Assembly: GCF_003572205.1 (NCBI RefSeq)
Contig: NZ_QXNY01000003.1
Coordinates: 310,001 to 374,000, forward strand
Direction: 5' to 3'
Length of the DNA: 64,000 nucleotides
Origin: Algihabitans albus
GTDB lineage: Bacteria > Pseudomonadota > Alphaproteobacteria > Kiloniellales > DSM-21159
A program made the translations under genes and the position numbers. Below the pieces are notes generated by a model. It had not been told where the DNA came from. It worked only from the letters and a program-made list of their open reading frames with translations, and ran no database searches. Shown here one piece after another: positions 2,155-39,975 of this stretch; position 1 is the first letter of the stretch, and each line of letters starts with the position of its first letter.

Positions 2155-3936
2155 ATGTCAAACACACGCGCCAACCGCCGCTTTCGATCCCAGGAGTGGT
2201 TCGACAATCCCAACAATCCGGGGATGACCGCCCTCTATATCGAGCGCTATCAGAACCAGGCCTTCACCCAGGAAGAACTGCAGTCAGAGCGTCCCGTGAT
2301 CGGCATCGCCAACAGTGGAAGCGATCTGGCGCCCTGCAACAAGATCCACGTGTTTCTGATGGATCGAATCAAAGCCGGCATCCGCGACGGCGGAGGCATC
2401 CCCCTGGAGTTTCCGGTTCACCCGATTCAGGAGACCGGCAAGCGGCCCACCGCGGCGCTGGATCGCAATCTGGCCTATCTCGGTCTCGTCGAAATTCTTC
2501 ATGGTTATCCCATCGACGGCGTCCTACTGACCACGGGTTGCGACAAGACAACGCCTGCCATGCTGATGGGCGCGGCGACGGTGGATCTGCCGGCCATCGC
2601 CCTTAACGGCGGACCGATGCTAGACGGCTGGTGGCGCGGCACACGCGCCGGCTCCGGCACGATTGTCTGGGAGAGCCGGCGCCTCCTGGCGGAAGGCAAG
2701 ATCGACTACCCGGAGTTCATGGCGCGCGCCTGCGCCTCCGCACCGTCGCTCGGCCATTGCAACACCATGGGAACGGCCTCGACCATGAACGCCATGGCCG
2801 AAGCGTTGGGGATGACGCTGCCGGGCAGCGCCGCCATTCCCGCACCCTTCCGCGAGCGCATGGCGATGGCCTACCTGACCGGCAAGCGGATCGTCGAGAT
2901 GGTCTATGAGGACCTCCGCCCCTCTCAGGTGCTCACGCGGGAGGCCTTCGAGAACGCGATCGTCGTCAACACGGCCATCGGCGGCTCCACCAATGCACCG
3001 CCGCATCTGCAAGCGATCGCGCGCCACGCCGGAGTCGATCTGACCGTCAAGGACTGGCAAGCGATCGGTCTCGACGTCCCGTTGATCGTCAACATGCAAC
3101 CGGCCGGCCAGTATCTCGGCGAGAGCTTCTTTCGCGCCGGCGGCGTCCCGGCCGTGATCGGGGAACTGATGGTGGCCGGCCTTCTGCACCGCGAGCCACT
3201 GACCGTCAGTGGAAAGCCGCTCGTCGAAGCTGTCGGCGACGCGCGCAGCCTCGATCAGGAGGTCATCACCACCGTCGAGGCGCCGCTGCGGCAAAAGGCC
3301 GGTTTCATCGTACTGTCCGGCAACCTCTTCGACTCGGCTTTGATGAAGACCTCGGTGATTTCGGACGACTTCCGCCAGCGGTTTCTATCGACACCCGGTC
3401 GGGAGGGCGTGTTCGAAGCGAAGGCCGTCGTGTTCGAAGGTCCGGAAGACTACCACGCGCGGATCAACGATCCCGATCTCAACATCGACGCGGACACAAT
3501 GCTGTTCATTCGAAACGTGGGCTGCGTCGGCTATCCCGGCTCGGCGGAGGTCGTGAACATGCAGCCACCGGACGCGCTTTTGAAAGCCGGTGTCTCCCAT
3601 CTGCCGACGGCGGGCGACGGGCGACAGTCCGGCACGTCGGAGAGCCCCTCCATCCTCAACGCTTCGCCGGAGGCGGTGGTGGGAGGTGGCCTTGCGTTCC
3701 TGCAGACCGGCGATCGCGTCAGGTTGGATCTGAAGGCTGGCCGTCTGGATGCGCTGGTCACCGATGACGAATGGCAAGAGCGAAGAGCCAGCTGGTCTAT
3801 GCCTGAACTCAAACATCAAACCCCCTGGCAAGAACTCTATCGCCAGCATGTCGGTCAACTGGCCGACGGCGGCTGTCTGGAGCTTGCAACCGCTTATCAG
3901 AGGATCTCCAAGGACTTGCCACGAGACAATCACTAG
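2155..3936 (+). CDS. xylD: IlvD/Edd-family aldonate dehydratase (D-xylonate or L-arabinonate type)
   Basis: This 593-residue cytoplasmic iron-sulfur dehydratase would convert a pentonate (D-xylonate or L-arabinonate) to the 2-keto-3-deoxy acid. Cysteines expected to hold the cluster are seen at C61 (APCNK), C129 (TTGCDKTTPA) and C202 (GHCNTMGTAS). The N-terminal RSQEWFDNP stretch, the GPMLDGWW segment and the C-terminal LPRDNH ending match the Caulobacter XylD and rhizobial arabinonate-dehydratase branch rather than biosynthetic IlvD. An AGGA box precedes the ATG. The XylX-like and semialdehyde dehydrogenase genes at 6.3-9.0 kb would complete a Weimberg-type route. The exact pentonate cannot be told from sequence, and hexonates are possible. 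Confidence 0.85.
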   Translation: MSNTRANRRFRSQEWFDNPNNPGMTALYIERYQNQAFTQEELQSERPVIGIANSGSDLAPCNKIHVFLMDRIKAGIRDGGGIPLEFPVHPIQETGKRPTAALDRNLAYLGLVEILHGYPIDGVLLTTGCDKTTPAMLMGAATVDLPAIALNGGPMLDGWWRGTRAGSGTIVWESRRLLAEGKIDYPEFMARACASAPSLGHCNTMGTASTMNAMAEALGMTLPGSAAIPAPFRERMAMAYLTGKRIVEMVYEDLRPSQVLTREAFENAIVVNTAIGGSTNAPPHLQAIARHAGVDLTVKDWQAIGLDVPLIVNMQPAGQYLGESFFRAGGVPAVIGELMVAGLLHREPLTVSGKPLVEAVGDARSLDQEVITTVEAPLRQKAGFIVLSGNLFDSALMKTSVISDDFRQRFLSTPGREGVFEAKAVVFEGPEDYHARINDPDLNIDADTMLFIRNVGCVGYPGSAEVVNMQPPDALLKAGVSHLPTAGDGRQSGTSESPSILNASPEAVVGGGLAFLQTGDRVRLDLKAGRLDALVTDDEWQERRASWSMPELKHQTPWQELYRQHVGQLADGGCLELATAYQRISKDLPRDNH

Positions 3937-4045
3937 AGCGCGACCGTCATAGCGATTTCATCTAAAGCGATCCGACGCAGGGGCAGTGAGCGGCAAAGAA
4001 CGATCCTTAGTTCAATTGCATTCTTGCGCAAAAGCAGATGGTATG

Positions 4046-4055
4046 TGGTATACCA
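4046..4055. promoter_or_regulatory. Palindromic operator candidate for a GntR/FCD regulator
   Basis: TGGTATACCA is a perfect 10-bp palindrome in the 254-bp gap between the dehydratase and the GntR gene. It fits the TGGT-N-ACCA style of sites bound by FadR/FCD-type GntR proteins. It lies about 140 bp upstream of the regulator start, so autoregulation is the simplest reading. The rest of this gap shows no gene. Confidence 0.5.
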
Positions 4056-4190
4056 AACTTGCGAACCTCGCGTGCTCGGGCCATGGGATACCTTTCCGGC
4101 CTTCCGAATTTGGCGCGGTACGCGGAACCGGCACGGCCGTCTCTCGGCCGAAACAGCGGCCGCTCGAGGTTTCAGGATGACGGTGATGAC

Positions 4191-4925
4191 ATGTCTTTGC
4201 TGATGGAAAACCACTCCGAAGACGACGAGTTGGCGATCTCCCGCCAGGCTCTGGCATCCCAAGTCGCTGATCGTCTGCGGGATTGGATCCTGGTCGAGAA
4301 GCTCGAGCCAGGCCAAGTCCTTGGAGAACGGGAACTGGCCGACCGGGTCGGCGTCTCGCGGACGCCGATGCGCGAGGCCTTGCGGATCCTGGCCGCCGAA
4401 GGGTTGGTGGACATGGTCCCCAATCGCCGCCCCCGGGTCGCCGATCCGACCTTGGAGCAGCTCCTTGCGTTGCTCGACGTGCTGGCCGCCCTGGAAGGGC
4501 TGGCGGGCGAGAAGGCAGCGGAGACCATAACCGAGGAAGAAGTCGCGGAACTGAAGGCCATTCTCGAGAAGCTGGCGACCTTCCCGGCAGAGGGCGACGC
4601 TCTGGAGTTCTTCCGGGCGGATATGAGCTTTCACCGCAGAATTGTGCGCGCCGCGAACAATCCCGCCCTGACCAAAACCCATGAGCAGTACAACGCGGCG
4701 GTCTTCCGCGCGCGTTTCATGTCGACGCGCTGGACGACGCGCCGGCCGCTTATGAAGGATCAGCATGGTCAGATTCTCGAGGCGCTGGCACGCCGAGACG
4801 GTCCGACCGCCAGTGCCATGATGCGCGAGCACCTTATGCAGCTCAAACGCAACATCTCCGAACTCTACGCCAACGATCGATCCGCACGCAGCGCCGATGC
4901 TATGCCGCGCAGGGTGCAGAGCTGA
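4191..4925 (+). CDS. GntR-family transcriptional regulator, FCD (FadR) subfamily
   Basis: This 244-residue DNA-binding protein has a winged helix-turn-helix at about residues 20-85, with GERELADRVGVSRTPMREAL typical of GntR proteins. An all-helical FCD ligand-binding domain follows, with the metal-site style D-x-x-FHRR and a C-terminal REHL segment. An upstream in-frame reading to 4038 exists, but residues before M52 of that frame do not resemble the family, so ATG 4191 is chosen. It sits between two dehydratase genes on the same strand and probably senses a sugar acid or keto-deoxy acid. A palindromic candidate operator lies at 4046-4055. Confidence 0.88.
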   Translation: MSLLMENHSEDDELAISRQALASQVADRLRDWILVEKLEPGQVLGERELADRVGVSRTPMREALRILAAEGLVDMVPNRRPRVADPTLEQLLALLDVLAALEGLAGEKAAETITEEEVAELKAILEKLATFPAEGDALEFFRADMSFHRRIVRAANNPALTKTHEQYNAAVFRARFMSTRWTTRRPLMKDQHGQILEALARRDGPTASAMMREHLMQLKRNISELYANDRSARSADAMPRRVQS

Positions 4926-18888: not shown

Positions 18889-20406
18889 TCAGGCCGCCAC
18901 CTTCATTTCCATCCAGTTGGCGAAGGCGGTACGTTGAACCTCGCTCAAGAAGAGACCGTGCTTGGTACGACGCTCCAGAACGTCTTCGGGCGTGCGTGCC
19001 CATTCGCGCTCGATCAGCCAACGGACTTCGCGTTCGTAGAGGTGACCGCCGAAGCAAAGGCCCAAGTCGTCCAGCGACCCAACTCCTTCGATCAGCCGCT
19101 CGGCATCGGTGCCGAAGGCCCGTGCGTAGTGGCGAGCCAAGGTTTCCGGTAACCAGGGATGCGCCGCAGAGAAGCCGGAGAGCCAGCCTTCGAAGTCGGC
19201 ATCGGGAATGTCTCCGCCTGGGAGCGGCGCCGAGGCTGTCCAAGGTTCGGTCATGTGGGGGAAGAAGGGCTTGAGGCGCTCCAGTGCCGCCTCCGAAAGC
19301 TTCCGGTAGGTGGTGATTTTGCCGCCGAACGCGGACAGGATGGGTGCGCGGCCCTCGCCACCGTCCAACTCGAGCTCATAGTCGCGCGTGACCGCGGACG
19401 CACCCTTGCTTTCATCGTCGTCGAATAACGGGCGGACGCCGGAGTAGTCCGCCAGGACGTCGTCTGGCGTCAGGGCCGTCTCGAAGTAGCGGTTCAGAAC
19501 TTTCAACAGATAGTCCACCTCCGCCTGTTCGATCGCCACGTCTTCGGCCCGTCCTTCGAACGGGATATCGGTCGTCCCGACCAGAGCCAGATCTTCGAGA
19601 TAGGGATTCACGAAAATCAGCCGGCGGTCGGTATTCTGCAGGACATAACCATGCTCGCCCCGCCACCAGCGCTTTAGGATGATGTGACTGCCCTTGACGA
19701 GACGGACGCGCCGCTGCGCGTTCACGCCGACGACGTTCCCGAGCACCGTCTCAACCCAGGGCCCCGCCGTATTGACCAAGGCGCGTGCCATCACGTTGCG
19801 TGTCGTCCCAACTCCCTCATCCTGCAGCACCACCCGCCACAACGCACCTTCGCGACGCGCCGAAACGCAGGCGGTGCGGGTCACCACCTCTGCACCCAAA
19901 CGCGCCGCGTCCACGGCGTTCGACACGACGAGACGCGAATCGTCGACCCAGCAGTCGGCGTATTCGAAGGCGTTACGGAAACTCTCGCGCAAGGGAACTC
20001 CTTCCGGCGCCGCTCGCAGGTTGATCGATCGGCTGCGCGGCAGACGCTTACGCCCACCGAGGTGATCGTACAGAAACAGGCCGAGCCGAATCAGCCAGCG
20101 CGGTCTCTGCTCGGAACTGTGCGGCAGAATCAGACGCAGCGGCCACACGATGTGCGGCGCGGCGGCCAGCAGAACCTCGCGTTCGATCAGCGCCTCTCGG
20201 ACCAACCGGAACTCATAGTATTCAAGGTAGCGCAAACCGCCGTGGATGTACTTGCCGGACCGGGAGGACGTGCCCTCCGCCAAGTCGCCTTTCTCGCAGA
20301 GCAGGACGGACAGACCGCGCCCGGCTGCGTCACGGGCTACACCGGCACCATTGACACCACCCCCAATAACCAGAAGGTCGACGGTCCGCTCCACCTCTTG
20401 CGTCAT
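18889..20406 (-). CDS. glpD: FAD-dependent glycerol-3-phosphate (or erythritol-phosphate) dehydrogenase
   Basis: This 505-residue flavoprotein has the FAD dinucleotide fold VIGGGVNGAGVARDAAGRG at the N-terminus, the IHGGLRYLE motif and the GlpD C-terminal helical domain. It oxidises glycerol-3-phosphate, passing electrons to quinone at the membrane. The rhizobial erythritol-phosphate dehydrogenase EryB belongs to the same family and cannot be separated by eye. It is the last gene of the minus-strand polyol operon, 109 bp after the hydroxyacid dehydrogenase. In rhizobia glpD accompanies the GlpSTPQV glycerol ABC system, which this operon resembles. Confidence 0.85.
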   Translation of the reverse strand: MTQEVERTVDLLVIGGGVNGAGVARDAAGRGLSVLLCEKGDLAEGTSSRSGKYIHGGLRYLEYYEFRLVREALIEREVLLAAAPHIVWPLRLILPHSSEQRPRWLIRLGLFLYDHLGGRKRLPRSRSINLRAAPEGVPLRESFRNAFEYADCWVDDSRLVVSNAVDAARLGAEVVTRTACVSARREGALWRVVLQDEGVGTTRNVMARALVNTAGPWVETVLGNVVGVNAQRRVRLVKGSHIILKRWWRGEHGYVLQNTDRRLIFVNPYLEDLALVGTTDIPFEGRAEDVAIEQAEVDYLLKVLNRYFETALTPDDVLADYSGVRPLFDDDESKGASAVTRDYELELDGGEGRAPILSAFGGKITTYRKLSEAALERLKPFFPHMTEPWTASAPLPGGDIPDADFEGWLSGFSAAHPWLPETLARHYARAFGTDAERLIEGVGSLDDLGLCFGGHLYEREVRWLIEREWARTPEDVLERRTKHGLFLSEVQRTAFANWMEMKVAA

Positions 20407-20515: not shown

Positions 20516-21559
20516 TCAACATCGATTCAGCGGAGGTTCGCCGGCGATATGGCGGCGTACCTCCTCGGCGGCGCTGCGCGCGGCGATCCGGACGGTCTTG
20601 AGTGACGCGCCGGCGATATGCGGCGTCAAAGTCACGTTGGATAGCCCGAGCAAGGGCCAATCGGCCGGCACCGGCTCGACCGCGAAGGTTTCCAGCATGG
20701 CCCCACGCAGATGGCTGGTGGCAAGCGCCCGATAGAGCGCCTGATAATCGACCAACGGCCCCCGCGCCGTATTCACCAGCACGGACCCGGGTTTCATGCG
20801 GGCAAGAGCCGCAGAGTCGATGAAACCCGTTGTCTCGTCTGTGACTCGGGCGTGCAAAGTGACGATGTCGGCTTCGGCGAGGAGTTCGTCGAGCGGCAGC
20901 AGACGCACGCCGTCGGCGACATCGACCGGGTCGAGCTGAACATAGGGGTCGGCGACCAGGACGCGCGCACCGAAGGCCTTCAGCAGCCGCACCACACGTG
21001 TCCCGATCGCGCCGTAACCGACCACTCCGACCGTCAGTTCGGACAGTTCTTCGCCAACAGTGTCTGCTCGGTAAAGATCTCCGCGCCAGCTCCCTTGGCG
21101 CAGGGCATCGTGACCGCGGGTGATGTTGCGCGTTTCTGTCAGAATCGCACCCAGCGTAAACTCCGCAACCGCCGAGGCGTTGCGTCCCGGTGCATTGACA
21201 ACGGTTACGCCGCGTGCCCTCGCTGCTGCCATGTCGATGTTGACCGGCCCGCCGCGCGTCACGGCGACCAACCTCAAGTCGGGGAGTCGGTCCAGCATGA
21301 CGGAGGACAAAGGAGCAAGATGCGTTACGAAGACAGGGGCGTCGGCGACATGTTCGATGACGCGCTCGGGCTCACCCATGTACTCCTTCAGTCCCTGCAA
21401 GCTAGAGACGCCGTTTCCAGACTGCACCATAGGTTCGTCCGGCCACGGCAGCTCCAAGGAGCGGCAGCGCACGGCGCCGCCGCAAACCTTCGACAGCTCC
21501 TCTTCGAAGATGGCCGGCAGCATGAAGCGGTCGCCAATGATCGCTACATCGATCTTCAC
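20516..21559 (-). CDS. D-isomer-specific 2-hydroxyacid dehydrogenase family protein
   Basis: This 347-residue NAD-dependent enzyme has the Rossmann motif GYGAIG (181-186) and the catalytic residues R266 (NTARGP), E295 (AVEP) and H314 (TPHIAG). Family members interconvert 2-hydroxy and 2-keto acids. The start overlaps the FGGY kinase stop by four bases, so the two are translationally coupled. A hydroxyacid dehydrogenase is not part of the classical glycerol or Brucella erythritol pathways, so this operon may degrade an oxidised polyol or sugar acid. The substrate cannot be assigned. Confidence 0.8.
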   Translation of the reverse strand: MKIDVAIIGDRFMLPAIFEEELSKVCGGAVRCRSLELPWPDEPMVQSGNGVSSLQGLKEYMGEPERVIEHVADAPVFVTHLAPLSSVMLDRLPDLRLVAVTRGGPVNIDMAAARARGVTVVNAPGRNASAVAEFTLGAILTETRNITRGHDALRQGSWRGDLYRADTVGEELSELTVGVVGYGAIGTRVVRLLKAFGARVLVADPYVQLDPVDVADGVRLLPLDELLAEADIVTLHARVTDETTGFIDSAALARMKPGSVLVNTARGPLVDYQALYRALATSHLRGAMLETFAVEPVPADWPLLGLSNVTLTPHIAGASLKTVRIAARSAAEEVRRHIAGEPPLNRC

Positions 21560-23124
21560 GCCGTCCCCTCCGTCCCGCTCCGCACCTCCGCGAGTTCACT
21601 CCAGATGGGGCGAAGCGCATGCCGCGTCTCCTGGTAGACGTGAAAAAGCGACTCATACTGAGTCGCCAGTTCGTCGTCGCTTCCGTCCGGCGGCCCCAAA
21701 AGCGGTGTCACCCAATCGGCAACGCAGGTCGAAAGATCCGAATAGAAGCCTTGCTGTACCGCGGCGATCATGACGGCACCGGCGGCGCCCGCCTCGGCGC
21801 GTTCGACCGACCGCACAGGCGCACGCAGTACAGCCGCCAGAATTTGCCGCATGGCGCGGGACTGTGCCGCGCCACCGGTCACGCGGATCTCCGACGGTAT
21901 GGGACCCAACGCCTCGTAACAATCGCGAGCGGCGAAGGCGAGGCCTTCGTATACGCTGCGCAGCAGATCGAAGAAGCCGGTCGTCTGGTCCAGACCCGTG
22001 AAACTGGCGCGGGCGTCCGGATCGGTGAAGGGTCCCCGCTCCCCTGCAGCCGAAATGTAGGGATGATAGAGTGCCGCTGCCGGACGCGCCGCCAGAACCC
22101 GCGCGTCCAACCCCTCCAGCAGATCGCGGCGGCTACGGGTGACGCAGCCAAGCGCCAGCACTTCGCGGGCCAGATCGAGCATCCAATCGAGGTTCAGCGT
22201 CGCCGCCATGTTGGTCTGCATCTGCGCATAGGCCTGGCCGGGAAAGGCCATGGTGTAGCCGCAGCGCTCCGGGTTCAGACGAACCTCTTCAGCGGAAGCG
22301 GCGAAGCGCATGTGCATTCCCGTGGAGCCGAGCACGCTCATGCCGGGCCGCACATCGGGATCGCAGAGCCCGCCGCCGAGAGCGGAGCACATGATGTCCA
22401 CATACCCCAGGATCACAGGCAAACCGGCCTTGAGCTCAAGCGCCTCGGCGGCCGCAGACGACAGCGCGCCCGCCGTTCGCGCGCCGTCGAGAATCGGCGG
22501 CAAGAGGCCTTGCTGATCGACCAGGTCGAGGGCTTCGAATACCGCATTCGAGTAGGTCCGCGTGCGGAAGTCGCCAAAGGTGAAAACACCCTCGGTCGGG
22601 CAGGTCGCACGTTGGCCGGTGAGCCGGAAGTAGATCCAATCCTTGGGGTGCAGAGCGGTCGCGGCACCTGCGAGAAGCTCCGGAGCCTGGCGTTTCATCC
22701 AGCGGAGCTGCGTTCGCATCTGACAGGCGTTCACGCCAGTCGCGGTGATGCGATAGATCAGCTCCGCCTCCGGCGATCCCTCCAGTGCTCGCACTTCCTC
22801 GGCCGCGCGCGCATCGAGCCAGATCCAACCGTCATGTACCGGCTCACCGTCTCGGTCGATCAGCCAACAGCCATCACCCTGTCCGGTGACGGCGAGCGCG
22901 GCGACTCGCTCCGACAGACCGGGATAGCGTTCGAGCAGCATGCGCAACACCGCCACGACATCGCTCCAGGTCCGCGTCATGTCCTGCTCCGCACCGCCGC
23001 CTGGCAGTCTGCGATAGGCGTTTGGGCGACTGGCCATTCCGATCTGGCGGCCATCCGCCTCGAAGGCGACGACCTTGATCACCGAGGTCCCACTGTCGAC
23101 ACCAATGAACACCGGGCTTCTCAC
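21556..23124 (-). CDS. FGGY-family carbohydrate kinase (erythritol kinase-like)
   Basis: The 522-residue protein shows the two-domain FGGY kinase layout, with the N-terminal phosphate loop GVDSGTS (residues 8-14), the catalytic aspartate in LGYVDIMCSALGGG and the C-terminal ATP-site segment RVTGGAAQSRAMRQI. The sequence style is nearest to erythritol kinase EryA and AI-2/xylulose kinase-like groups. It would phosphorylate the imported polyol or its derivative. ATG 23124 overlaps the stop of the ABC ATPase by four bases, and its own stop overlaps the next gene. The combination of kinase, GlpD/EryB-like enzyme and SorC regulator favours a tetritol or glycerol-like substrate. Confidence 0.82.
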   Translation of the reverse strand: MRSPVFIGVDSGTSVIKVVAFEADGRQIGMASRPNAYRRLPGGGAEQDMTRTWSDVVAVLRMLLERYPGLSERVAALAVTGQGDGCWLIDRDGEPVHDGWIWLDARAAEEVRALEGSPEAELIYRITATGVNACQMRTQLRWMKRQAPELLAGAATALHPKDWIYFRLTGQRATCPTEGVFTFGDFRTRTYSNAVFEALDLVDQQGLLPPILDGARTAGALSSAAAEALELKAGLPVILGYVDIMCSALGGGLCDPDVRPGMSVLGSTGMHMRFAASAEEVRLNPERCGYTMAFPGQAYAQMQTNMAATLNLDWMLDLAREVLALGCVTRSRRDLLEGLDARVLAARPAAALYHPYISAAGERGPFTDPDARASFTGLDQTTGFFDLLRSVYEGLAFAARDCYEALGPIPSEIRVTGGAAQSRAMRQILAAVLRAPVRSVERAEAGAAGAVMIAAVQQGFYSDLSTCVADWVTPLLGPPDGSDDELATQYESLFHVYQETRHALRPIWSELAEVRSGTEGTA

Positions 23125-24248
23125 GCCAAGCGACCTCCATGGCTGACGGCGGCTCCATTCCCGGCATCGAAGAAGTGAAGGTCTTCAGGTGCCAGGGCTA
23201 CAGCGACTCGCTCGCCGGGACGTACAGTGGCGCGGCGGTGCTCCACAGCCACCAGCACCCCGCCGGCGAACTCCGCTGCGATATGGGACTGGTCGCCGAG
23301 CCACTGGTTCACCGTGACGGTCGCCGGCACCCCCTCGGCGACCAGCCGAACCGCATGCGGCCGCACCCCGATCGCGATCTGGCCATGTTCCAGGAGCCGC
23401 GCGTGCACCGACTCTTCGAAGGCCGCGGCGGCATAGTTCAGCTCGGCACCCTCGCCCAAGCGCAAGCGCAGACGACCGTTCCCGCCACCGACCTTTGCGA
23501 CAAAGACGTTCATCGGCGGCTCGCCGATAAAGGTTCCCGTGAAGAGATTTGCCGGCCGGTCCTTCAGAACAGCCGGCGTCGCAAACTGTTGCAGTAGGCC
23601 GCCTTCCATCACCGCAATGCGGTCGGCCAGCGCATTCGCCTCGGTCTGGTCATGGGTGACCAGGATAGCGGTCATGCCGCGTTCCTTGATGTGATGTTTG
23701 ATCCGGCCACGCAGCAGCGCACGCAGTTGCGGCTCGAGCTGACCCATCGGCTCGTCGAGCAGGTGGAGATCGGCGTCGCGGACGAGCGCCCTGCCGAGAC
23801 TGGCGCGCTGCTGCTGACCGCCCGAAATCGAGGAGGGGTATCGCTCGAGGATGTCCTCGATTTCCAGAAGCCGTGCGATCTCCTCGACGCGGCGCGTCGT
23901 CTCCTCGCGTCTCAGCTTCGCAGACTTCAGTGCGAAGGCGATGTTCTCGCGCACCGTCAAAGGCGGATAGAGCGAATAGCCCTCGAAAGCCATCGCGACA
24001 TTGCGCCTGGCCGGGGCCAGGTCATGGATCTCCCGACCCTTCAGGCGAATTTGGCCTGCCGTTACCTCCTCGAACCCGGCGATCATCCGCAGGGTCGAGG
24101 TCTTTCCACAGCCGGACGCGCCCAACAGGGCGACGATCTCACCCGCAGCGACCTGCATCTTTAAGCCATGTACAGCCTGCACGGGATGCGCACTTCCGGG
24201 ATTGTAGATCTTGTCGAGTCCCTCGAGGATCAAAGCCGCCTCGTTCAT
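23121..24248 (-). CDS. ABC transporter ATPase, GlpT-like, with altered Q-loop
   Basis: This 375-residue MalK-type ATPase has Walker A GASGCGKT (43-50), signature ISGGQ (141-145), Walker B with catalytic glutamate E166, and switch histidine H199, followed by a TOBE regulatory domain. The Q-loop glutamine is replaced by glutamate E89 (AMAFEGYSLYPP), and the D-loop reads GQLEPQ instead of the usual SNLDAK. It pairs with the ATPase encoded immediately upstream; the genes overlap by four bases. Two unlike ATPases also occur in the rhizobial GlpS/GlpT glycerol importer. The retained E and H suggest that its own Walker site hydrolyses ATP. Confidence 0.85.
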   Translation of the reverse strand: MNEAALILEGLDKIYNPGSAHPVQAVHGLKMQVAAGEIVALLGASGCGKTSTLRMIAGFEEVTAGQIRLKGREIHDLAPARRNVAMAFEGYSLYPPLTVRENIAFALKSAKLRREETTRRVEEIARLLEIEDILERYPSSISGGQQQRASLGRALVRDADLHLLDEPMGQLEPQLRALLRGRIKHHIKERGMTAILVTHDQTEANALADRIAVMEGGLLQQFATPAVLKDRPANLFTGTFIGEPPMNVFVAKVGGGNGRLRLRLGEGAELNYAAAAFEESVHARLLEHGQIAIGVRPHAVRLVAEGVPATVTVNQWLGDQSHIAAEFAGGVLVAVEHRRATVRPGERVAVALAPEDLHFFDAGNGAAVSHGGRLA

Positions 24249-25363
24249 GCTGCGGCTCCTCTCACATCAGCACCGCGCCGGTTCGGATCGATCCTCAACC
24301 CGGTTTCACGATCGAACAGCAGCGCATGCGCGCTGTCGACGGCGATGTGCGCTATTCCGTCAGTCGGTCCAGGCTGGCCGGATGGGCGCGAGACCAGGAT
24401 CTCGCGCCCGCGGGCGGTGGTGACCAGGGTCACGATCTTCTCGTTGAGCGGCGTTTCCGCTTCGATGGTGACCGGAATGGCGCCGGCATCGCCGGCCTCG
24501 ACGAAGCGGATCGCCTCCGGGCGGAGCCCGAGCGAGCAAGCCCTGCCGATGGCGTGACCGAGCCCCGGATCGATCGGTGCCCTGAGCTTCGACAGACGTA
24601 CGAAGGGACCTTGAGCATCTTGCTCGGGCACAACGTCGAGGACATTGATGGTCGGATCGCCGAACAGACGCGCGATCTCCAGCGAGGCAGGTGAGAGATA
24701 AATCTCCTCAGGGGTGCCGAGTTGCGCGATGCGGCCGCGAAACAACACCGCGATACGGTCCGCTAGCGCCATCGCCTCCTTGTAGTCTTGGGTAACATAG
24801 AGCGTGCTCGCGCGCTCCGCCGCGAGCAGTCGCGGCAGCTCCAGCCGCATCTCGAAGCGCAGCTTGGCGTCGACATTGCGCAGCGGATCGTCGAGCAGCA
24901 GCAGAGACGGAGCCCCGGCCAGCGCGCGAGCGAGGGCCGTGCGCTGCTTCTGACCGTTGGAAAGAGCACGCGGCTTGTGGGTGAGCACCTGGTCGATCTT
25001 GAGCAGGCGGGCGACCCGATCCACCCCCTCGCGCACCCGCTCGGTGGGCCTGCGCTTGGCCGCCAAGGGACTGGCGATGTTGTCGAAGGCGTTCATATGC
25101 GGAAAGAGAGCGAAGTTCTGGAAGGCCATACCGATATCGCGCAGCTCGGGCGGAACGTCGAGCATGTTCCGACCGTTGAGGCGTAGGGTGCCATCGTCGG
25201 GCTCTATGACACCGGCGATCAGGCGCAGCAGAACCGTCTTGCCGGCACCCGACGGGCCGAAGAGAACCAGGGTTTCCCCCTCTGCCAAGCTCAGGGACAC
25301 ACCGTCAAGCACGGTCTCTTTCTTGTAGCGCTTAACGATATCAAGAAGCTCGATGGCCGCCAT
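24245..25363 (-). CDS. ABC transporter ATPase, GlpS-like, with a degenerate catalytic site
   Basis: This 372-residue MalK-type ATPase has Walker A GPSGAGKT (36-43) and Q82, but several key residues deviate. The signature is LSNGQ (134-138), the Walker B glutamate is replaced by D159 (LLLLDDP), and the switch histidine is replaced by Q192 (YVTQDYKEA). A TOBE domain follows. Together with its partner it would form a heterodimer with one weak and one active nucleotide site. It lies three bases after the inner-membrane permease gene and overlaps the second ATPase gene. The altered residues lie in an otherwise intact frame, so this is not decay. Confidence 0.85.
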   Translation of the reverse strand: MAAIELLDIVKRYKKETVLDGVSLSLAEGETLVLFGPSGAGKTVLLRLIAGVIEPDDGTLRLNGRNMLDVPPELRDIGMAFQNFALFPHMNAFDNIASPLAAKRRPTERVREGVDRVARLLKIDQVLTHKPRALSNGQKQRTALARALAGAPSLLLLDDPLRNVDAKLRFEMRLELPRLLAAERASTLYVTQDYKEAMALADRIAVLFRGRIAQLGTPEEIYLSPASLEIARLFGDPTINVLDVVPEQDAQGPFVRLSKLRAPIDPGLGHAIGRACSLGLRPEAIRFVEAGDAGAIPVTIEAETPLNEKIVTLVTTARGREILVSRPSGQPGPTDGIAHIAVDSAHALLFDRETGLRIDPNRRGADVRGAAA

Positions 25364-25366
25364 GAC

Positions 25367-26224
25367 TCACCCTTTCACCGCGCCGAGCGACAGTCCCTCG
25401 ACGAGATAGCGTTGCGCGTAGATCGCAAGTGCGAGGGTCGGCGCGATCGACAGGACGATGGCGGCGGCGATCTGCCCGAACTGAATGCCCGAGGCGGTCA
25501 CGAACGCGAGCGCGCCAACCGTGACGGGCTGCTTATCCGCCGAACCGAGCACGAGAGCGAAAACGAAGTTGTTCCAGGCGAAAATGAATGCCAGCAACCC
25601 AGCGGCGGCGATGCCCGGTCCCGCCAGCGGCAGGGCGATCTTGCGGAAGGTCGCGAACCAGGAATGGCCGGCGATGCGATAGGCGTACTCCACGTCCGCC
25701 GGAATGTCCTCGAAGTAGCCGCGCACGATCCAGAGAATCAGAGGCAGGCAGATCAGTTGGTAAACCCAGATCAAGCCAATGTAGGTATCGGCCAGCCCGA
25801 CATCCTGAAAGTAGAGCGCCAGCGGCAGAACCACGAGAAGCGGCGGCGCGAAGCGAAACGACAGCAGGGTGAAGGCAATGTCCTCCGATCCCCGGAACTT
25901 ATGACGTGCAAAGGCATAGGCGGCCGGAACGCCGAGCAACAATGCCACCGCAACCGATGAGACAGAGAGGATCACCGAGTTCTTCAGGTTCTGCATGAAG
26001 GAGATGTCGAGGGTTCCGGCCGCCGTCTCGAGCCGGCCCGTCAGCAGGGCCACGTAGTTGGATAGGGTCGGAACGAAAGCCATCGAGGGTGGATTGCGCA
26101 GAATCGTCTCGTTCGTCTGGAACGACATCAGGAGAATCCAGAAGATCGGGAAGATGAAGAACAAGACGACTGCCGTGATCGCAATACCGCGCAGGACCCG
26201 TTCCAAAATCGAGGTGTGTTCCAT
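25367..26224 (-). CDS. ABC transporter permease, MalG type
   Basis: The 285-residue inner-membrane protein has six predicted helices and the cytoplasmic coupling (EAA-like) loop EYAYRIAGHSWFATFRKIALP, which touches the ATPases. It belongs to the carbohydrate-uptake-1 permeases. It lies three bases downstream of the MalF-type permease and three bases upstream of the first ATPase gene. The loop starts E-Y-A-Y-R-I-A-G rather than the common E-A-A-x-x-D-G, the second A and the D being replaced, as is seen in glycerol-type systems. Confidence 0.88.
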   Translation of the reverse strand: MEHTSILERVLRGIAITAVVLFFIFPIFWILLMSFQTNETILRNPPSMAFVPTLSNYVALLTGRLETAAGTLDISFMQNLKNSVILSVSSVAVALLLGVPAAYAFARHKFRGSEDIAFTLLSFRFAPPLLVVLPLALYFQDVGLADTYIGLIWVYQLICLPLILWIVRGYFEDIPADVEYAYRIAGHSWFATFRKIALPLAGPGIAAAGLLAFIFAWNNFVFALVLGSADKQPVTVGALAFVTASGIQFGQIAAAIVLSIAPTLALAIYAQRYLVEGLSLGAVKG

Positions 26225-27248: not shown

Positions 27249-28691
27249 TCAACCCAGGCCAGCCTCGGCGAGCTGCCTGTCGACGCTGTCCGCCAGGCGG
27301 TCCAACCCCTCGTCGACCCCCATCTGACCGGCCACCATCTCCTGCAAGGCGGCCGCCCATTCGGTGGTGAGATCGAAGAACAGGGGTTGGGGCGTGAAGT
27401 AGATCTGAGCGCCCGGCGCCGAGGCTTCGTATTGAGTCACATAACCGGGATAGGAGCCCTCCATGCGCGCCCGGAACATCTCGTCCGACCAAACCGACTG
27501 ACGCACCGGGTTGACGAAATCCTTCTCGCGCGCGCCCACCAGTGCATGCTCGGCACCCGAGGCCCACTGCAGGAAGTACCAGGCAGCGTCCGGGTTCCTG
27601 GAGAAGGACGACATCGCGAGCGACCAGATCCAGACGTTGGGTGTCGGCACCTGCGCCGCCGGGTTGGCGGCAAAGGGCGCATACCCCAAGTTGCCGGCCT
27701 CGGCGTTGTCGCCGCCGTTCATGAAGAAGCCCAGGATGTCGGCGTCGTAGATCATGGCCGAGGCGCCGGCCCCCAGGTCGCTTCCGACCTGATACCAAGT
27801 GTAGGTCGACCAGTTCCTGGGCCCGCTGTCCTGGATCATCTGGACCCACTGAGCATGAAAGGCCTTGGATTCCGGGGTGTTCATCGCCGCCGAGAGCTGA
27901 CCCTCCGCGGAGACGCTGAGATCCTTTTGTCCGAAGTTGGCGTAGGCCGACAGGAAACCCGGATGGATCGTGGCCCAGGAGCGCGAGCCGCGTACGCCGA
28001 TGCCGTAAGCGCCATCGATGTCGCGGTTGAGCTTCGCCGCAGCCTCGGCCAGTTGATCCATGTTCTCCGGCGGAGTGACACCGGCTCGGTCGAACATCAC
28101 GCGGTTGTAGGAGAGGTTGTTCAGCTCGAAACCCCAGGGGATACACCACTGCTTGGCGCCCTCTCCTCCCAAGGCATCGCCGGGGCGTCCGCTCCAGGCC
28201 GTGGACGCTCGCAAACCGGGTAGCACGTCCTCCCAGGCGTAAGCCGGTGCGGTCTTCTCCGGATCCTGAATCCACTCGGCCAAGTCGGTGCACCAGCCGG
28301 CTGGGCCATAGGTCCAGGTCATGTAGGCGCCGGTCATGAAAGCGTCGTACTCGCTGGAGCGCGAGGCGAGCGCCGCCGTCACCTTGTCGAAGTAGACGTC
28401 CTCCGGGAACACATCGTAGGCGACCTCCATGCCGGTGAGGGACTTGAAGCTCTCCAGATTGGCGATCATCGCGTCAGTGTAGGGATGCTTGTTCAGCAGC
28501 AGCTTGACGCCACTGCCGCTGTGACGCTTCCAGTCGAAATCCTGCGCCAAAGCTTGCGTGGTGGCCTTGTTGATCAGAAGATCGGCCGTCGCCGCGGTCA
28601 CACCGAGCGCGGCGAGACCACGCAAAAGGCCTCGCCGGCTGACCCGTCCGCGGACGAAGGCATCCACAAGGTCTTTTTCTTTCTCGTACAT
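27249..28691 (-). CDS. ABC transporter extracellular solute-binding protein (family 1)
   Basis: The 480-residue protein has a twin-arginine-like signal (SRRGLLRG at about residues 18-25, then a hydrophobic stretch ending TQALAQ), so it may be exported folded by Tat. The mature part shows the two-lobe family 1 binding-protein pattern, with VAYDVFPEDVYFDKV and conserved tryptophans in the binding face. It delivers the substrate to the two permeases. It follows the SorC regulator by 12 bases. The substrate is probably a polyol such as glycerol or a tetritol, judged from the kinase and GlpD-like enzyme in the same operon. Confidence 0.88.
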   Translation of the reverse strand: MYEKEKDLVDAFVRGRVSRRGLLRGLAALGVTAATADLLINKATTQALAQDFDWKRHSGSGVKLLLNKHPYTDAMIANLESFKSLTGMEVAYDVFPEDVYFDKVTAALASRSSEYDAFMTGAYMTWTYGPAGWCTDLAEWIQDPEKTAPAYAWEDVLPGLRASTAWSGRPGDALGGEGAKQWCIPWGFELNNLSYNRVMFDRAGVTPPENMDQLAEAAAKLNRDIDGAYGIGVRGSRSWATIHPGFLSAYANFGQKDLSVSAEGQLSAAMNTPESKAFHAQWVQMIQDSGPRNWSTYTWYQVGSDLGAGASAMIYDADILGFFMNGGDNAEAGNLGYAPFAANPAAQVPTPNVWIWSLAMSSFSRNPDAAWYFLQWASGAEHALVGAREKDFVNPVRQSVWSDEMFRARMEGSYPGYVTQYEASAPGAQIYFTPQPLFFDLTTEWAAALQEMVAGQMGVDEGLDRLADSVDRQLAEAGLG

Positions 28692-28703: not shown

Positions 28704-29753
28704 CTAAGGGTCGTTTGCACCAGCGGTTTTTTTCCGCTTCTTCCGGTCGTCCTTGCCGCTGTCCCGCACCAATCGGTCCGCTGTCGCTTCGTCGGTGATC
28801 AGGCCAGTGAAGAGTCCGCTTGCGAGGGCGGCATTGAGCGCCGCGACCTTCTGCGCGCCTCCGGCAACTGCGTAGACCTCGCGTCCGCGCAGGGTTTCGA
28901 GATCCGGCGCCATGACCCGTCCGTCATAGGGCGTCGAGATCGAGCGGCCGTCAGAGTCCAGGAACTGCCCCAAGACTTCGGCACAAGCACCTTGCCGGCG
29001 CAGTTCGCGCAGGGAGGTCTCGGAATCGAAGACGTTGGCGTGTGCGACGCTGCCCGACATGTCGACGGCGCCGATGCCCAGGATACAGACCGTCGCCGCC
29101 TCGATCGTCTTCATGATCTCCACCAAGCCGGCCTGCGCCAACATGATGTTGCGGTCCTCCGGCGTGTTCACGAACATGGGCGCCGGCATCAAGTAGGCTT
29201 CGGCACCGGTCTTCTCGGCCAGGCGGTGGATCACGTCGTAGGGATTGGCCGCGAACTTGCGAGTCAGACCGCCCAGGATCGAAACGAAGCGAGCACCGCC
29301 AGCCTCATACAGCGGCATCATGTCGACCATCGAAGCCATGGTGCGGCCATGACCGACACCGATCACCTCGTGATCGCGACGTTCAAGCAAACCCATGAGA
29401 AAGGAAGCGCCGGCTAATCCGAGTGCGCGCAGCGGAATCGGTCCGGTTTCGCCGAGATCGGGAACGACCGTGCAGTTCGCGAGGCCGTAGCGTTGCGTCA
29501 GCGTGGTTTCCAGCGAAATGCAGGTCGAGACTTCGGCGTCGACGAACACCCGCACCAAACCATCCTTCGCGGCGCGGGCGATCATGCGATGAGCCCGCGT
29601 CGTAGGAATGCCGAAGCGAGCGGCAATGGCGCTTTGCGTCATACCGCCAGCGTAATGCAGCCAAGCCGCACGTGCCGCGAGATCGCTGTCCTCAACCGGC
29701 TCCCTGGCCGTTCTGGCCGCCTTGCGCAAAGACCCTTCCTCCCGCATCACCAT
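28704..29753 (-). CDS. SorC-family (EryD-like) transcriptional regulator
   Basis: This protein of about 349 residues has an N-terminal helix-turn-helix (MTQSAIAARFGIPTTRAHRM) and a SorC sugar-phosphate-binding domain containing VGHGRTMASMV and VSILGGLTRKFAANPYDV. The layout and wording resemble Brucella EryD, the erythritol repressor. ATG 29753 is chosen tentatively; a TTG at 29786 extends the frame by 11 residues, and neither has a convincing ribosome site. As the first gene of the transporter and kinase operon it is probably autoregulated and released by a phosphorylated intermediate. The 142-175 bp upstream are AT-rich and hold the promoter but no other gene. Confidence 0.83.
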   Translation of the reverse strand: MVMREEGSLRKAARTAREPVEDSDLAARAAWLHYAGGMTQSAIAARFGIPTTRAHRMIARAAKDGLVRVFVDAEVSTCISLETTLTQRYGLANCTVVPDLGETGPIPLRALGLAGASFLMGLLERRDHEVIGVGHGRTMASMVDMMPLYEAGGARFVSILGGLTRKFAANPYDVIHRLAEKTGAEAYLMPAPMFVNTPEDRNIMLAQAGLVEIMKTIEAATVCILGIGAVDMSGSVAHANVFDSETSLRELRRQGACAEVLGQFLDSDGRSISTPYDGRVMAPDLETLRGREVYAVAGGAQKVAALNAALASGLFTGLITDEATADRLVRDSGKDDRKKRKKTAGANDP

Positions 29754-29928
29754 ACGTTGTGGTGAATTATTTTTCGTTGAACGCAATTTTTTCCATGTTG
29801 CGCTTTGGTGTCAAGCGCCTCTCATGGATGCTCACGCTGGGTCACAGAGATAATCGACGACCGTCGAAGCCCAAGCCTTTGCAGAGCGGCCTCTTCGATC
29901 GGTCGGCCGATCTGCGCAGGCACTTCGC

Positions 29929-31407
29929 TCAGCGCTTTGGCAAGCTTGCGTGGTAAGCGGCGGCCTGGCGGCCGGAGAGCGAGTCCCAGGCCGCACGAGC
30001 AGCCGGGTCGGGCGCGACGGTGATGCCGCTGCGGCTCATGGTTTCGGCCGCCGCAGCGAAGTCGACGAACCAACCTAGTCCCACAGCTGCCGACATGGCG
30101 GCCCCCAAAGACGAGGCTTCGAGGCTCTCGCTCAGCACGATCGGCAGGCCGGTGGCATCGGCGATCATCTGAACCCAAAGGGCGCTGTTCGCTCCGCCGC
30201 CAACCGCCAGGATGCGCTCAGGCGCCAAACCGTCGTCCGCCATCGCCGCTACGCAGCGCGCGGTCTCCAGGGTCAGAGCCTCCAGCGAGGCCCGATAGAG
30301 ATGCCCGATTCCGTGACCGGCTCCGAGTCCGAGAAAGCCGGCTCGTGCCTTCGGATTCCAATGGGGGTCCATGACGCCGGACAGGTAAGGGCAAACGGTA
30401 ACGCCTTCCGATCCCACGGGAATCGCGGTGGCGGCCGCCTCCAGTCGCGCAAAGACGCCGGGGTCGTCGCGACCGCCCGCGAAGGTGTCGACGAACCAGT
30501 TGACGAAGAAGGCGCCGGCGCGTTGACAGCCCTCTAGAAAATACCCCTGGCCGGTGGGCGACGTCATGGTGCGCCAGGCGCAACCGATGCGGGGAGTCGG
30601 CGACCAGGCGCCGGTGATGATGGCAGTTCCGAGGTTGAGATAGACGATCCCGCGCCGGACGGCATCGACGCCGAGGCCGGCGCACTGGCCGTCTCCGCCC
30701 GCGGCGAAAACCGGGGTTCCGGGCAGCAGGCCCGTCTCGCGGGCCGCCGCAGGGTTGACAGCACCGATCCGACTGCCCGGCTGCGCCAGTGCGGCAAAGC
30801 GATTCTCGGACAGATCGAGCTGCGCCAAAACCGCTTCGGACCAGGTCTTGGCCTCGATGTCGAACAGGCCGAAGGGATCGGCGCTGGTCCAGCTCGCGGT
30901 CGGGCGCCCGGTCAGACGCCCGGTCAGAAACCCATGGACGTCGAGAATACCCGCAGCCTTCAAAGCCTCCGGCTCATGCCGGCGCAGCCAGCTCAAGCGG
31001 TAGACAACCGGCGTGATGTCCGGCGGCTTGCCGCTCGTCGCGTGCAAACGCTCGGCACCAAAGGCGGCTGTCAACAACGGGATCTCATCGATCGCCCGCT
31101 CGTCGAGCCAGACAATCGCGGGTCGGGTCGCCTTCAGATCCTCGTCGACAAAGGCGACGGTCTCACGCTGGTTTGAGATCGCCAAGCCGGCGATCCGAGC
31201 CGGTTCCACCGCAGACGTCAACTCATGCAAGGAGGTGCAGGCCGCGCGCCACCAGTCCTCGATATCCTGCTCTGCGAAACCGGGCGCAGGTGTCGCCATG
31301 GGAATTGGCGCACGCCCCTCTGCGACCGCCTCTCCGCCACGGGTCCAGGCGACCGCCTTGGTCGACTGTGTGGAGCTGTCGAGTCCGACAATCAGGTCGC
31401 CGCTCAT
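29929..31407 (-). CDS. FGGY-family carbohydrate kinase (xylulokinase-like)
   Basis: This 492-residue kinase has the N-terminal phosphate loop GLDSSTQSTK, the segment SNQRETVAFVDE, the catalytic aspartate in AAGGDGQCAGLG and the C-terminal AVGGGANSALWVQMIAD ATP-site stretch. It would phosphorylate a ketose or polyol. ATG 31407 overlaps the stop of the SorC gene by four bases. It forms a two-gene minus-strand operon with that regulator, divergent from the long transport operon, which contains a second and different FGGY kinase. The exact substrate is unknown. Confidence 0.84.
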   Translation of the reverse strand: MSGDLIVGLDSSTQSTKAVAWTRGGEAVAEGRAPIPMATPAPGFAEQDIEDWWRAACTSLHELTSAVEPARIAGLAISNQRETVAFVDEDLKATRPAIVWLDERAIDEIPLLTAAFGAERLHATSGKPPDITPVVYRLSWLRRHEPEALKAAGILDVHGFLTGRLTGRPTASWTSADPFGLFDIEAKTWSEAVLAQLDLSENRFAALAQPGSRIGAVNPAAARETGLLPGTPVFAAGGDGQCAGLGVDAVRRGIVYLNLGTAIITGAWSPTPRIGCAWRTMTSPTGQGYFLEGCQRAGAFFVNWFVDTFAGGRDDPGVFARLEAAATAIPVGSEGVTVCPYLSGVMDPHWNPKARAGFLGLGAGHGIGHLYRASLEALTLETARCVAAMADDGLAPERILAVGGGANSALWVQMIADATGLPIVLSESLEASSLGAAMSAAVGLGWFVDFAAAAETMSRSGITVAPDPAARAAWDSLSGRQAAAYHASLPKR

Positions 31408-32426
31408 GAGTCCTCGCCAAGAAGCCTTGCCGCCGTATCGGCGTCGGTCACCAGATGCGTCGCATAGCCACCAGCCAGAACCGCCCGGATCGCTTTGATC
31501 TTCGCGGCCCCGCCGGCAGCGCAAACCCGGATGGGAATCGCGGGAAGCTCCTCCAGTGTCATACCGATCTGCCGCCCGCTGAGCGGGCCATCCACCTCCC
31601 TGCCGTCGGCATCGAGGAAGCGACCGATCAGGATCGCCAAACTGCCTGCGGCGAGATAACTGTCAACGACGGAAGCCGGCAAGAAATCCGTGTCGGACCA
31701 GACTGTCTCCGGCCCCAGTTCACCGACACCGAAGACCGTGAGATCGGCCGCGCGCAATCGTTCGAAGTGACGCCGCAAGCCCGGCTCGGCCAGCAGCGCG
31801 TCGCAAATTTCTTTGTTGGTCACCACCGCAGGCGCATGAAAGTTCTGGCAGCGCGCCCCAAGCCGCCCGGCAAAAAGGGCCGTGCAAGCCTCGGGGGAGG
31901 ATGCGTCGTCTCCGAGCGAACTGCCAGAGACCTGAACGATCTTGGTATGGGACAAGGTCATCTGCGGCAGCGCTTGAGCCACCTCCAGCATGGTGCGGCC
32001 CCAGGCAACGCCAATCGTTCTGTCGTCGACCAGCCAGGGAGAGAGCATCTGCGCCGCAGCACGCCCGATACGTCGGCGCAGTCGCACCGCTTGCGCCTCC
32101 GGATCGCCGCACTCCGGTTCGGGCGGCGTGACACAGGCGCCGATCAGCCCGAACCGCTCCGCAAGTGCCTGACCTTGCTGCACTTTGCCCAGCAGATTGG
32201 GGCTCAGACTGATGGTCACGAGACCGCGTCGGCGCGCTTCCGCCAGATAGTTGGCGACCGAGGCACGCGAGACGCCGAGCGCGCCAGCAACCTCGTTTTG
32301 CGTCAGCGCCTCGCCGTAGTAGAGCCAGGCCGCCCAAGCCAGAGCATCGCCGCCGAACTCGGGTGGCGTCTCGATCGCCGGATCGCCGGAAGAGGTCGAG
32401 CGCAAGGTCATACAGTCCGTCACCAT
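31404..32426 (-). CDS. SorC-family transcriptional regulator
   Basis: This protein of about 340 residues has a helix-turn-helix at about residues 37-60 (LTQNEVAGALGVSRASVANYL) and a SorC-type effector domain with GVAWGRTMLEVA and the C-terminal CAAGGAAKIKAIRAVL. It probably senses a sugar phosphate. The start is uncertain: ATG 32426 is used; TTG 32438 and ATG 32411 are alternatives. It is divergent from the glycerol-1-phosphate-dehydrogenase-like gene, and the 91-bp gap contains two near-identical 11-bp motifs that may be its operators. Confidence 0.83.
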   Translation of the reverse strand: MVTDCMTLRSTSSGDPAIETPPEFGGDALAWAAWLYYGEALTQNEVAGALGVSRASVANYLAEARRRGLVTISLSPNLLGKVQQGQALAERFGLIGACVTPPEPECGDPEAQAVRLRRRIGRAAAQMLSPWLVDDRTIGVAWGRTMLEVAQALPQMTLSHTKIVQVSGSSLGDDASSPEACTALFAGRLGARCQNFHAPAVVTNKEICDALLAEPGLRRHFERLRAADLTVFGVGELGPETVWSDTDFLPASVVDSYLAAGSLAILIGRFLDADGREVDGPLSGRQIGMTLEELPAIPIRVCAAGGAAKIKAIRAVLAGGYATHLVTDADTAARLLGEDS

Positions 32427-38910: not shown

Positions 38911-39975
38911 ATGGCCACCGTCGAATACCGCAACATAGCCAAGAGCTACGGCTCGTTCGCGGTCATGCACGACCTTAACCTCAGCATCGCAGACGGCGAA
39001 TTCGCGGTTCTGCTGGGTGCGTCCGGCTGCGGCAAGACCACGCTGCTGCGCATGACCGCTGGGCTCGAAACCGTCACAGCCGGAGACCTCTTAATCGACG
39101 ATCTACGGGTCAACGACGTTCCGCCGCGCGACCGGGACATCGCGATGGTCTTTCAGAACTACGCGCTCTATCCCACCATGACCGTCGCGGAAAACATCTC
39201 CTTCTCACTCGAAATCCGCTCCGTACCGAAGGTGGAGCGACGACGGCGCGCCGAGGACGCTGCAGCGCTCGTCGGCTTAACGGAGCACCTCAACCGCTAT
39301 CCTCGGGAACTGTCTGGCGGACAGCGACAGCGGGTCGCGATGGCACGCGCCATGGTGCGGGACGCGAAGGTCTTTCTGTTCGACGAACCACTCTCCAATT
39401 TGGATGCGAAGCTGCGCGCCCAGATGCGCTTCGAGATCCGGCAGTTGCACGACCGCCTCGGGACCACGACGATCTACGTCACTCATGACCAGATCGAGGC
39501 CATGACCATGGCGGACAAGATCGTGCTGATGCGGGGCGGAGAGATCGAACAGGTTGGCTCACCGGACGAGCTTTACGACCGACCGGTCAGCCGCTTTGCA
39601 GCCGACTTCATAGGGTCGCCGGCCATGAATTTCGTGGAGGGCACGGTGGAGGCGAACGGAAATGCCCCCACCTTCGTCGCCGAAGGCATGCATCTCGGAC
39701 TCCCGACCAGTGTCTCGGTGACGCCTGGTCATCAGGTCGTCTGCGGGATGCGGCCCGCCGACCTGATGCTGGACTCGGACGGCAGTGTCGAAGGTCATTT
39801 GATCTTGGCGGAGAAAACCGGACCCGATCTGCAACTTCATATGACCGTCGCGGGGCAAGACTTCATCGCAACGGCGCCGCGCGATGCTAAAGTGAGCGCC
39901 GGCGACCGAGTGCGTCTCGCAGTGGCGCCGGAGAATCTCCACCTGTTCGACCCAGTCAGCGGACAACGTCTGTGA
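38911..39975 (+). CDS. ABC transporter ATPase, MalK/UgpC type (canonical)
   Basis: This 354-residue ATPase has all standard motifs: Walker A GASGCGKT, Q-loop VFQNYALYP, signature LSGGQ, Walker B FLFDEP, and switch histidine in YVTHDQIEA, followed by a TOBE domain. As the only ATPase of this operon it should work as a homodimer, in contrast with the two-ATPase system at 23-25 kb. Its TGA overlaps the GTG of the next gene by four bases. Confidence 0.9.
   Translation: MATVEYRNIAKSYGSFAVMHDLNLSIADGEFAVLLGASGCGKTTLLRMTAGLETVTAGDLLIDDLRVNDVPPRDRDIAMVFQNYALYPTMTVAENISFSLEIRSVPKVERRRRAEDAAALVGLTEHLNRYPRELSGGQRQRVAMARAMVRDAKVFLFDEPLSNLDAKLRAQMRFEIRQLHDRLGTTTIYVTHDQIEAMTMADKIVLMRGGEIEQVGSPDELYDRPVSRFAADFIGSPAMNFVEGTVEANGNAPTFVAEGMHLGLPTSVSVTPGHQVVCGMRPADLMLDSDGSVEGHLILAEKTGPDLQLHMTVAGQDFIATAPRDAKVSAGDRVRLAVAPENLHLFDPVSGQRL

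Follow-up and report, generated by a model that had tools for sequence, protein, structure and literature searches.

A family-wide asymmetric CUT1-type importer with one putatively degenerate ATP site in Algihabitans albus

Textbook type I importers of the ATP-binding cassette (ABC) class contain two identical ATP sites, and whether both sites need to fire is a standing question. A 64,000-nucleotide stretch of Algihabitans albus DNA (assembly GCF_003572205.1, contig NZ_QXNY01000003.1, positions 310,001 to 374,000 of the forward strand; hereafter the window) raises this question in concrete form, because it encodes an importer with two unlike ATPases, which we call S and T. A sequence-only reading, made without database searches, had proposed that the two chains show reciprocal loss of catalytic residues. 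We asked which ATP site each altered residue belongs to, whether the changes are fixed in relatives, and how other paired ATPases of the same family behave. The typical CUT1 importer uses an ATPase homodimer (PMC11519228, excerpt); the S/T system is a variant of the CUT1 family with two ATPase genes in place of that homodimer.

Altered residues and composite ATP sites

The residues named in the sequence-only reading were all found as read. In S, D159 follows D158 directly and occupies the position of the Walker B catalytic Glu, Q192 within VTQD replaces the switch His, and the signature at residues 134-138 is LSNGQ, with N136 in place of Gly. The Q-loop (Q82) and D-loop (D165) of S are normal. 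In T, E89 within AFEGY replaces the Q-loop Gln and the D-loop at residues 168-172 is MGQLE, with E172 in place of the usual Asp; the catalytic Glu (E166), the switch His (H199, within VTHD) and an ISGGQ signature (141-145) are retained. Both reading frames are intact and lie on the minus strand (Table 1), again in agreement with that reading.

An ATP site combines the Walker A and B motifs of one chain, along with its A-, Q- and H-loops, with the signature of the partner chain; in TM287/288 the D-loop also crosses over, extending to the nucleotide of the partner (PMC7756269, excerpt). By this rule, the site formed by the Walker motifs of S and the signature of T (site 1) holds D159, Q192 and E172, and the site formed by the Walker motifs of T and the signature of S (site 2) holds the intact E166, H199 and S D165 together with E89 and N136. 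The proposed reciprocal loss does not survive this assignment: T keeps both E166 and H199, so that the chains appear reciprocal, the sites do not, and the catalytic losses cluster in site 1. Thus, catalytic Glu and switch His are both lost in site 1 (D159/Q192) and both kept in site 2 (E166/H199), which is the pattern by which a degenerate site is recognized. An altered partner signature was not found in site 1, where T of the window contributes ISGGQ; the altered signature, LSNGQ, sits in site 2.

These residues point to a heterodimeric CUT1-type (type I) importer for a sugar or polyol in which site 1 would be degenerate and site 2 mainly hydrolytic, a reading to which we assign a probability of roughly 0.7. 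In the cycle that we envisage, S and T would act together as a heterodimer. Site 1, made from the Walker A/B motifs and Q- and H-loops of S with the signature and D-loop of T, would bind ATP and hydrolyze it slowly or not at all; site 2, made from the Walker A/B motifs and H-loop of T with the signature and D-loop of S, would carry out most of the hydrolysis, its Q-loop Glu being a change specific to this family and tolerated in it. Most of the ATP is probably consumed at site 2. The cycle, and with it the number of ATP molecules used, would then depend mainly on hydrolysis at a single site, resembling that of TAP or TM287/288 except that it would serve import.

The asymmetry is a property of the family. 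S adjoins T at 98 of 99 loci with a T homolog, and at the remaining locus T starts 57 bases from the sequence edge. The 99 loci count some genomes twice; removal of identical T rows left 96 T rows (window included) and 95 S rows. The orthologs share 0.52-0.83 (T) and 0.40-0.86 (S, truncated rows included) identity with the window proteins. Across the T alignment, E89, M168, Q170, E172 and H199 were present in 96/96 rows each, and E166 in 95/96 (one codon unread). N136, D159 and Q192 of S were each present in 94/95 rows, the remainder being a gap, and no ortholog row has a substitution at Walker A K42, Q82 or D165. Accordingly, the site 2 residues T E166, T H199 and S D165 are kept in every readable row. 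The fixed residues are written with varying codons: GAG in 60 and GAA in 36 rows for E89, GAT in 68 and GAC in 26 for D159, CAG in 88 and CAA in 6 for Q192, and AAC in 77 and AAT in 17 for N136. Since a single base change would restore the usual residue at each of D159, Q192 and E89, the absence of reversals argues for selection.

The contig scan that supplied 77 of the distinct T rows covered the best 80 of 577 relatives and is biased: E89 or the D-loop is part of two of the six peptide patterns used, and 17 of the 77 rows match no pattern but these two. In the 19 rows found without E89 or D-loop patterns (window included), every state was present in 19/19. By a strict E-value, T orthologs occur in 16 of 61 genomes of the order and in 6 of 385 genomes drawn from the class.

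Other paired ATPases and the ancestry of S-side chains

The window genome contains two further CUT1-type ATPase pairs, recognized by eye among the matches listed. One lies in a separate GlpR-GlpD-GlpS-GlpT-type operon (L009, C3:728000-741075) with a loss pattern of its own. GlpS/GlpT matched in 45 of 385 genomes, and 30 loci were read: the switch His of GlpS is replaced by Thr (29) or Ser (1) with the Glu kept, GlpT has LTADx for LSGGQ (30/30), and both Q-loops are normal. Alignment with the rhizobial GlpS/GlpT had been suggested as the way to see whether the S/T changes are family-wide. S and T form clades of their own, and the same genome holds a separate GlpS/GlpT operon with a different motif set; identity of S/T with GlpS/GlpT is therefore rejected. 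The ortholog alignments above answer the family-wide question instead. The third pair of the window genome, which we call A/B (L010:8659-10895), was found at 4 loci in 4 of 385 genomes. In its B chain, Pro replaces the switch His and Asp replaces the Q-loop Gln; in its A chain, the signature is broken and Glu stands in place of the D-loop Asp (each in 4/4).

A survey of four large genomes gave 178 matches. Among the matches listed, 14 adjacent pairs were read by eye; three were S/T orthologs already in the set, and the 11 further pairs were sorted as four Glp, three X1, two X2, one X3 and one X4 (one of them, L164, duplicates L136 of the Glp loci). Sixty matches with no neighbor among those listed, where unlisted neighbors may have been missed, served as controls. 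Four of these (L224, L226, L227 and L228) proved to be two split pairs, designated X5, and were removed; the remaining 56, together with 14 ATPases from the window genome, gave 70 unpaired controls. All 70 keep the S/G/G residues of the signature, the catalytic Glu, the D-loop Asp and the switch His, and 69 keep the Q-loop Gln. One of the 70 is an internal control from the window itself, a single ATPase with fully canonical motifs at 38911-39975 (+). It is encoded in a neighboring carbohydrate operon that runs in the opposite direction and also specifies a binding protein, a permease, class II aldolases and an Fe-ADH_2 protein. In a family search of 114 genomes, the best matches, which were those listed, were canonical and added no pairs.

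Across eight paired subfamilies, S-side chains account for eight Glu/His losses and one signature or D-loop loss, and T-side chains for none and eight, respectively. Side labels for X1 to X4 were taken from a first tree that included the motif columns, and those for X5 from the state of the switch His; a tree built without the motif columns agrees with all X1-X5 labels on the S side. Degeneracy thus appears common, though not universal, among paired CUT1-type ATPases. The earlier remark that degenerate paired sites are less usual in importers fits the literature covered here, but a degenerate site has been described for the RbsA and NupO importers (PMC11466899, excerpt), and such a site was found in most kinds of paired CUT1-type ATPases.

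Trees built without 14 motif columns place the S-side chains from all eight subfamilies in a single clade, both in IQ-TREE (64 taxa, 20 chains, ultrafast bootstrap 97) and in FastTree (136 taxa, 33 chains, Shimodaira-Hasegawa-like support 0.82). T-side chains form no single clade. Support is lower for branches inside the S-side clade (74-95 in IQ-TREE, 0.50-0.84 in FastTree), and their order differs between the trees. A hand count on the IQ-TREE order, with no regain assumed, gives at least four losses of the switch His. A broader account, which we hold tentatively and at slightly less than even odds, is that paired CUT1-type importers inherited an S-side ATPase set aside long ago as a weakly hydrolytic or non-hydrolytic partner. 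At least four losses of the switch His (to Pro, Thr, Ser or Gln) would then have followed in this chain, and varied T-side partners would have kept Glu and His while losing signature or D-loop residues of the same site. Sugar importers would in this way have converged on a TAP-like single-site cycle, and S/T, with its altered Q-loop and re-made permease coupling loop, would be among the most altered versions.

The Q-loop glutamate, the permease loop and the operon

E89 is the one change in T that falls on its own Walker site, and it could be taken for a plain loss of function. The X2 pairs, whose other scored motifs are canonical, likewise have a Q-loop Glu in both chains, as does X3, and a Q-loop Glu is also present in a single-ATPase operon (L220/L231; around 3158-4279, minus strand, in L231) whose other motifs are canonical. 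No second ATPase was found among the matched frames within the 8 kb covered around L220/L231. Because the X2 pairs and this operon combine a Q-loop Glu with canonical motifs, a plain loss is an unlikely explanation for E89, and we disfavor it; the Q-loop Glu is probably a tolerated state. Changes of the Q-loop Gln to Asn in ABCC1 were judged to have no direct link to hydrolysis (PMC7756269, excerpt).

The EAA coupling loop of permease 2 reads DVEYAYRIAGH. R183, G186 and H187 are present in 77/77 ortholog rows, and the usual Asp is replaced by Ala in 62, Gly in 13 and Ser in 1, with Asp kept in 1. This altered loop may be part of the same S/T asymmetry. We rejected a pairing of E89 with R183 as a general rule, since the X2 operon L234 combines a Q-loop Glu with a canonical EAA loop; within the S/T family such a pairing may still hold.

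The description of the locus as an importer with two unlike ATPases was borne out by its Pfam domains and operon parts. BPD_transp_1 was found twice and SBP_bac_1 once, supplying the parts of a CUT1-type (type I) importer. Both ATPases score above cut-off for TOBE_2, the C-terminal regulatory domain of CUT1-type ATPases, and below cut-off for OB_MalK. The motif G[IV]RPE[DH], given for CUT1 ATPases (PMC11519228, excerpt), appears as GLRPEA in S and GVRPHA in T; its strict form is matched by only 25 of the 70 unpaired controls. Upstream of S and T lie genes for a SorC-type regulator, the solute-binding protein and the two permeases, and downstream those for an FGGY kinase, a 2-hydroxyacid dehydrogenase and a GlpD-like protein (Table 1). 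The S-T, S-permease 2 and T-kinase junctions overlap or nearly touch. The same order, from regulator to GlpD-like gene, recurs in an S. meliloti genome (L079) and at L042, L104 and L116 (8 kb flanks). A class II aldolase is present in addition in the annotated records of pSymB and Shinella, and the GlpD-like gene is not listed in the annotated Shinella stretch. From these parts and their order, we conclude that S/T is a CUT1-type importer within a catabolic operon for a sugar or polyol. The MptABCDE erythritol transporter was considered as its identity, with evidence neither way. A second FGGY kinase gene adjoins the importer operon at 29929-31524 (-).

Table 1. Positions of genes and key residues of the S/T locus in the window.
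Feature	Position	Strand	Basis or conservation
S, S-side (non-canonical) ATPase chain, 372 residues	24245..25363	-	Open reading frame; Pfam ABC_tran, TOBE_2; ortholog alignment
T, T-side ATPase chain, 375 residues, 4-base overlap with S	23121..24248	-	Open reading frame; Pfam ABC_tran, TOBE_2; ortholog alignment
S D159, for Walker B catalytic Glu	24887..24889	-	94/95 rows, one gap
S Q192, for switch His	24788..24790	-	94/95 rows, one gap
S signature LSNGQ (N136 for Gly), serves composite site of T	24950..24964	-	94/95 rows, one gap
T E89, for Q-loop Gln	23982..23984	-	96/96 rows
T D-loop MGQLE (E172 for usual Asp), serves composite site of S	23733..23747	-	E172 in 96/96 rows
T E166, catalytic Glu retained	23751..23753	-	95/96 rows, one unread codon
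T H199, switch His retained	23652..23654	-	96/96 rows
Permease 2, MalG-like	25367..26224	-	Altered EAA coupling loop at 25664-25696
Permease 1, UgpA/MalF-like, canonical EAA loop	26228..27235	-	
Solute-binding protein (SBP_bac_1)	27249..28691	-	Pfam
SorC/LsrR-type sugar-binding regulator	28704..29786	-	
FGGY-family kinase, 4-base overlap with T	21556..23124	-	
2-hydroxyacid dehydrogenase	20516..21559	-	
Glycerol-3-phosphate dehydrogenase-like protein	18889..20406	-	

Known systems and alternative explanations

GlpS and GlpT belong to the glycerol importer GlpSTPQUV of Rhizobium leguminosarum VF39, with similar genes, Rmet_2229-2234, in Cupriavidus (PMC7912956, excerpt; original description by Ding et al. 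2012, as cited there). Like S/T, this CUT1-type importer combines two unlike ATPases with two permeases, its S chains fall in the common clade, and its losses cluster in the site formed by the S Walker motifs and T signature; unlike S/T, it has lost different residues, has normal Q-loops and is encoded by a separate operon in the same genome. The available part of PMC7912956 holds no statement on degenerate sites in GlpS/GlpT. RbsA and NupO are likewise importers with one predicted degenerate site, but they are type II, with two fused ATPase domains, and are altered in other motifs, namely the second Walker A lysine and the signature (PMC11466899, excerpt). DppD/DppF also form an importer with two different ATPases, but both retain the catalytic Glu (E179 and E187) and hydrolysis by both has been proposed (PMC12136057, excerpt). 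MalK, AlgS, SugC and further CUT1 ATPases with solved structures are the closest solved relatives of S and T and share their domain order, but the typical CUT1 importer is built on an ATPase homodimer (PMC11519228, excerpt).

TAP (ABCB2/B3) and TM287/288 resemble S/T in being heterodimers with one degenerate site that contains a Walker B Asp; unlike S/T, they are exporters. TAP1 has Gln at the switch-His position. Human TAP1 carries Asp668 in Walker B (PMC5441636), the Glu loss of ABCB2/B3 goes along with an H-loop deviation (PMC7756269, excerpt), and TAP retains ATP in its degenerate site (PMC12422388). The partner signature is usually altered in the degenerate sites of exporters (PMC7756269, excerpt), whereas T keeps ISGGQ in most rows. 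No paper on degenerate sites in paired CUT1 ATPases was found by title and abstract start, in a search that covered few subscription journals and is weak evidence of novelty.

Several observations weigh against a single hydrolytic site in S/T. A Walker B Asp is still capable of slow hydrolysis, and an active-site His-to-Gln change in ABCC1 retained transport (PMC7756269, excerpt); site 1 may therefore hydrolyze ATP slowly instead of being inactive. Nor is site 2 itself fully canonical (E89, N136), and the third-position Gly of the T signature is present in only 91/96 rows. N136 is also the sole exception to the division of losses between S-side and T-side chains. The Fisher p value for that division (0.0004) is only a guide, because the subfamilies are related by descent and X3 and X4 comprise one pair each. 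Moreover, both chains of X2 retain the Glu, the His, the signature and the D-loop Asp, X1 is altered only in the T-side signature, and a T homodimer would be compatible with the sequence.

Two other arrangements were considered. If D159, Q192 and E172 impair site 1 and E89 and N136 impair site 2, S/T could be a slow, binding-driven importer or a sensor. The invariant non-canonical residues in both sites favor this idea, which we nevertheless consider unlikely given that no readable row lacks E166, H199 or S D165 of site 2 and that a Q-loop Glu coexists with otherwise canonical motifs in the X2 pairs and one single-ATPase operon. Slightly less probable is a working T homodimer, with Glu, His and ISGGQ in both of its sites, and S as an accessory or regulatory ATPase-like chain. 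The near-constant adjacency of S and T argues against it, as does the absence of substitutions at K42, Q82 and D165 of S; in addition, S-side chains across the subfamilies keep the signature and D-loop that a partner needs, except for N136 here. Sequence error, which the sequence-only reading had named as a possible refutation, or pseudogene decay has next to no probability as the source of the odd residues and is rejected: these are fixed in 94 to 96 rows with synonymous codon change, they recur in all 19 rows found without the biased patterns, and the frames are intact.

The reading that we prefer, hydrolysis mainly at site 2, would place S/T, an importer whose asymmetry extends to its whole family, in a broader group of paired CUT1-type importers in which one composite site tends to be degenerate. 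An importer family with one fixed non-canonical site, accompanied by sisters that range from nearly canonical (X1 and X2) to strongly altered (Glp, A/B, X4 and S/T), is natural test material for the question of whether both sites must fire. It also carries a warning for annotators, in that some UgpC-like ATPases are paired and asymmetric.

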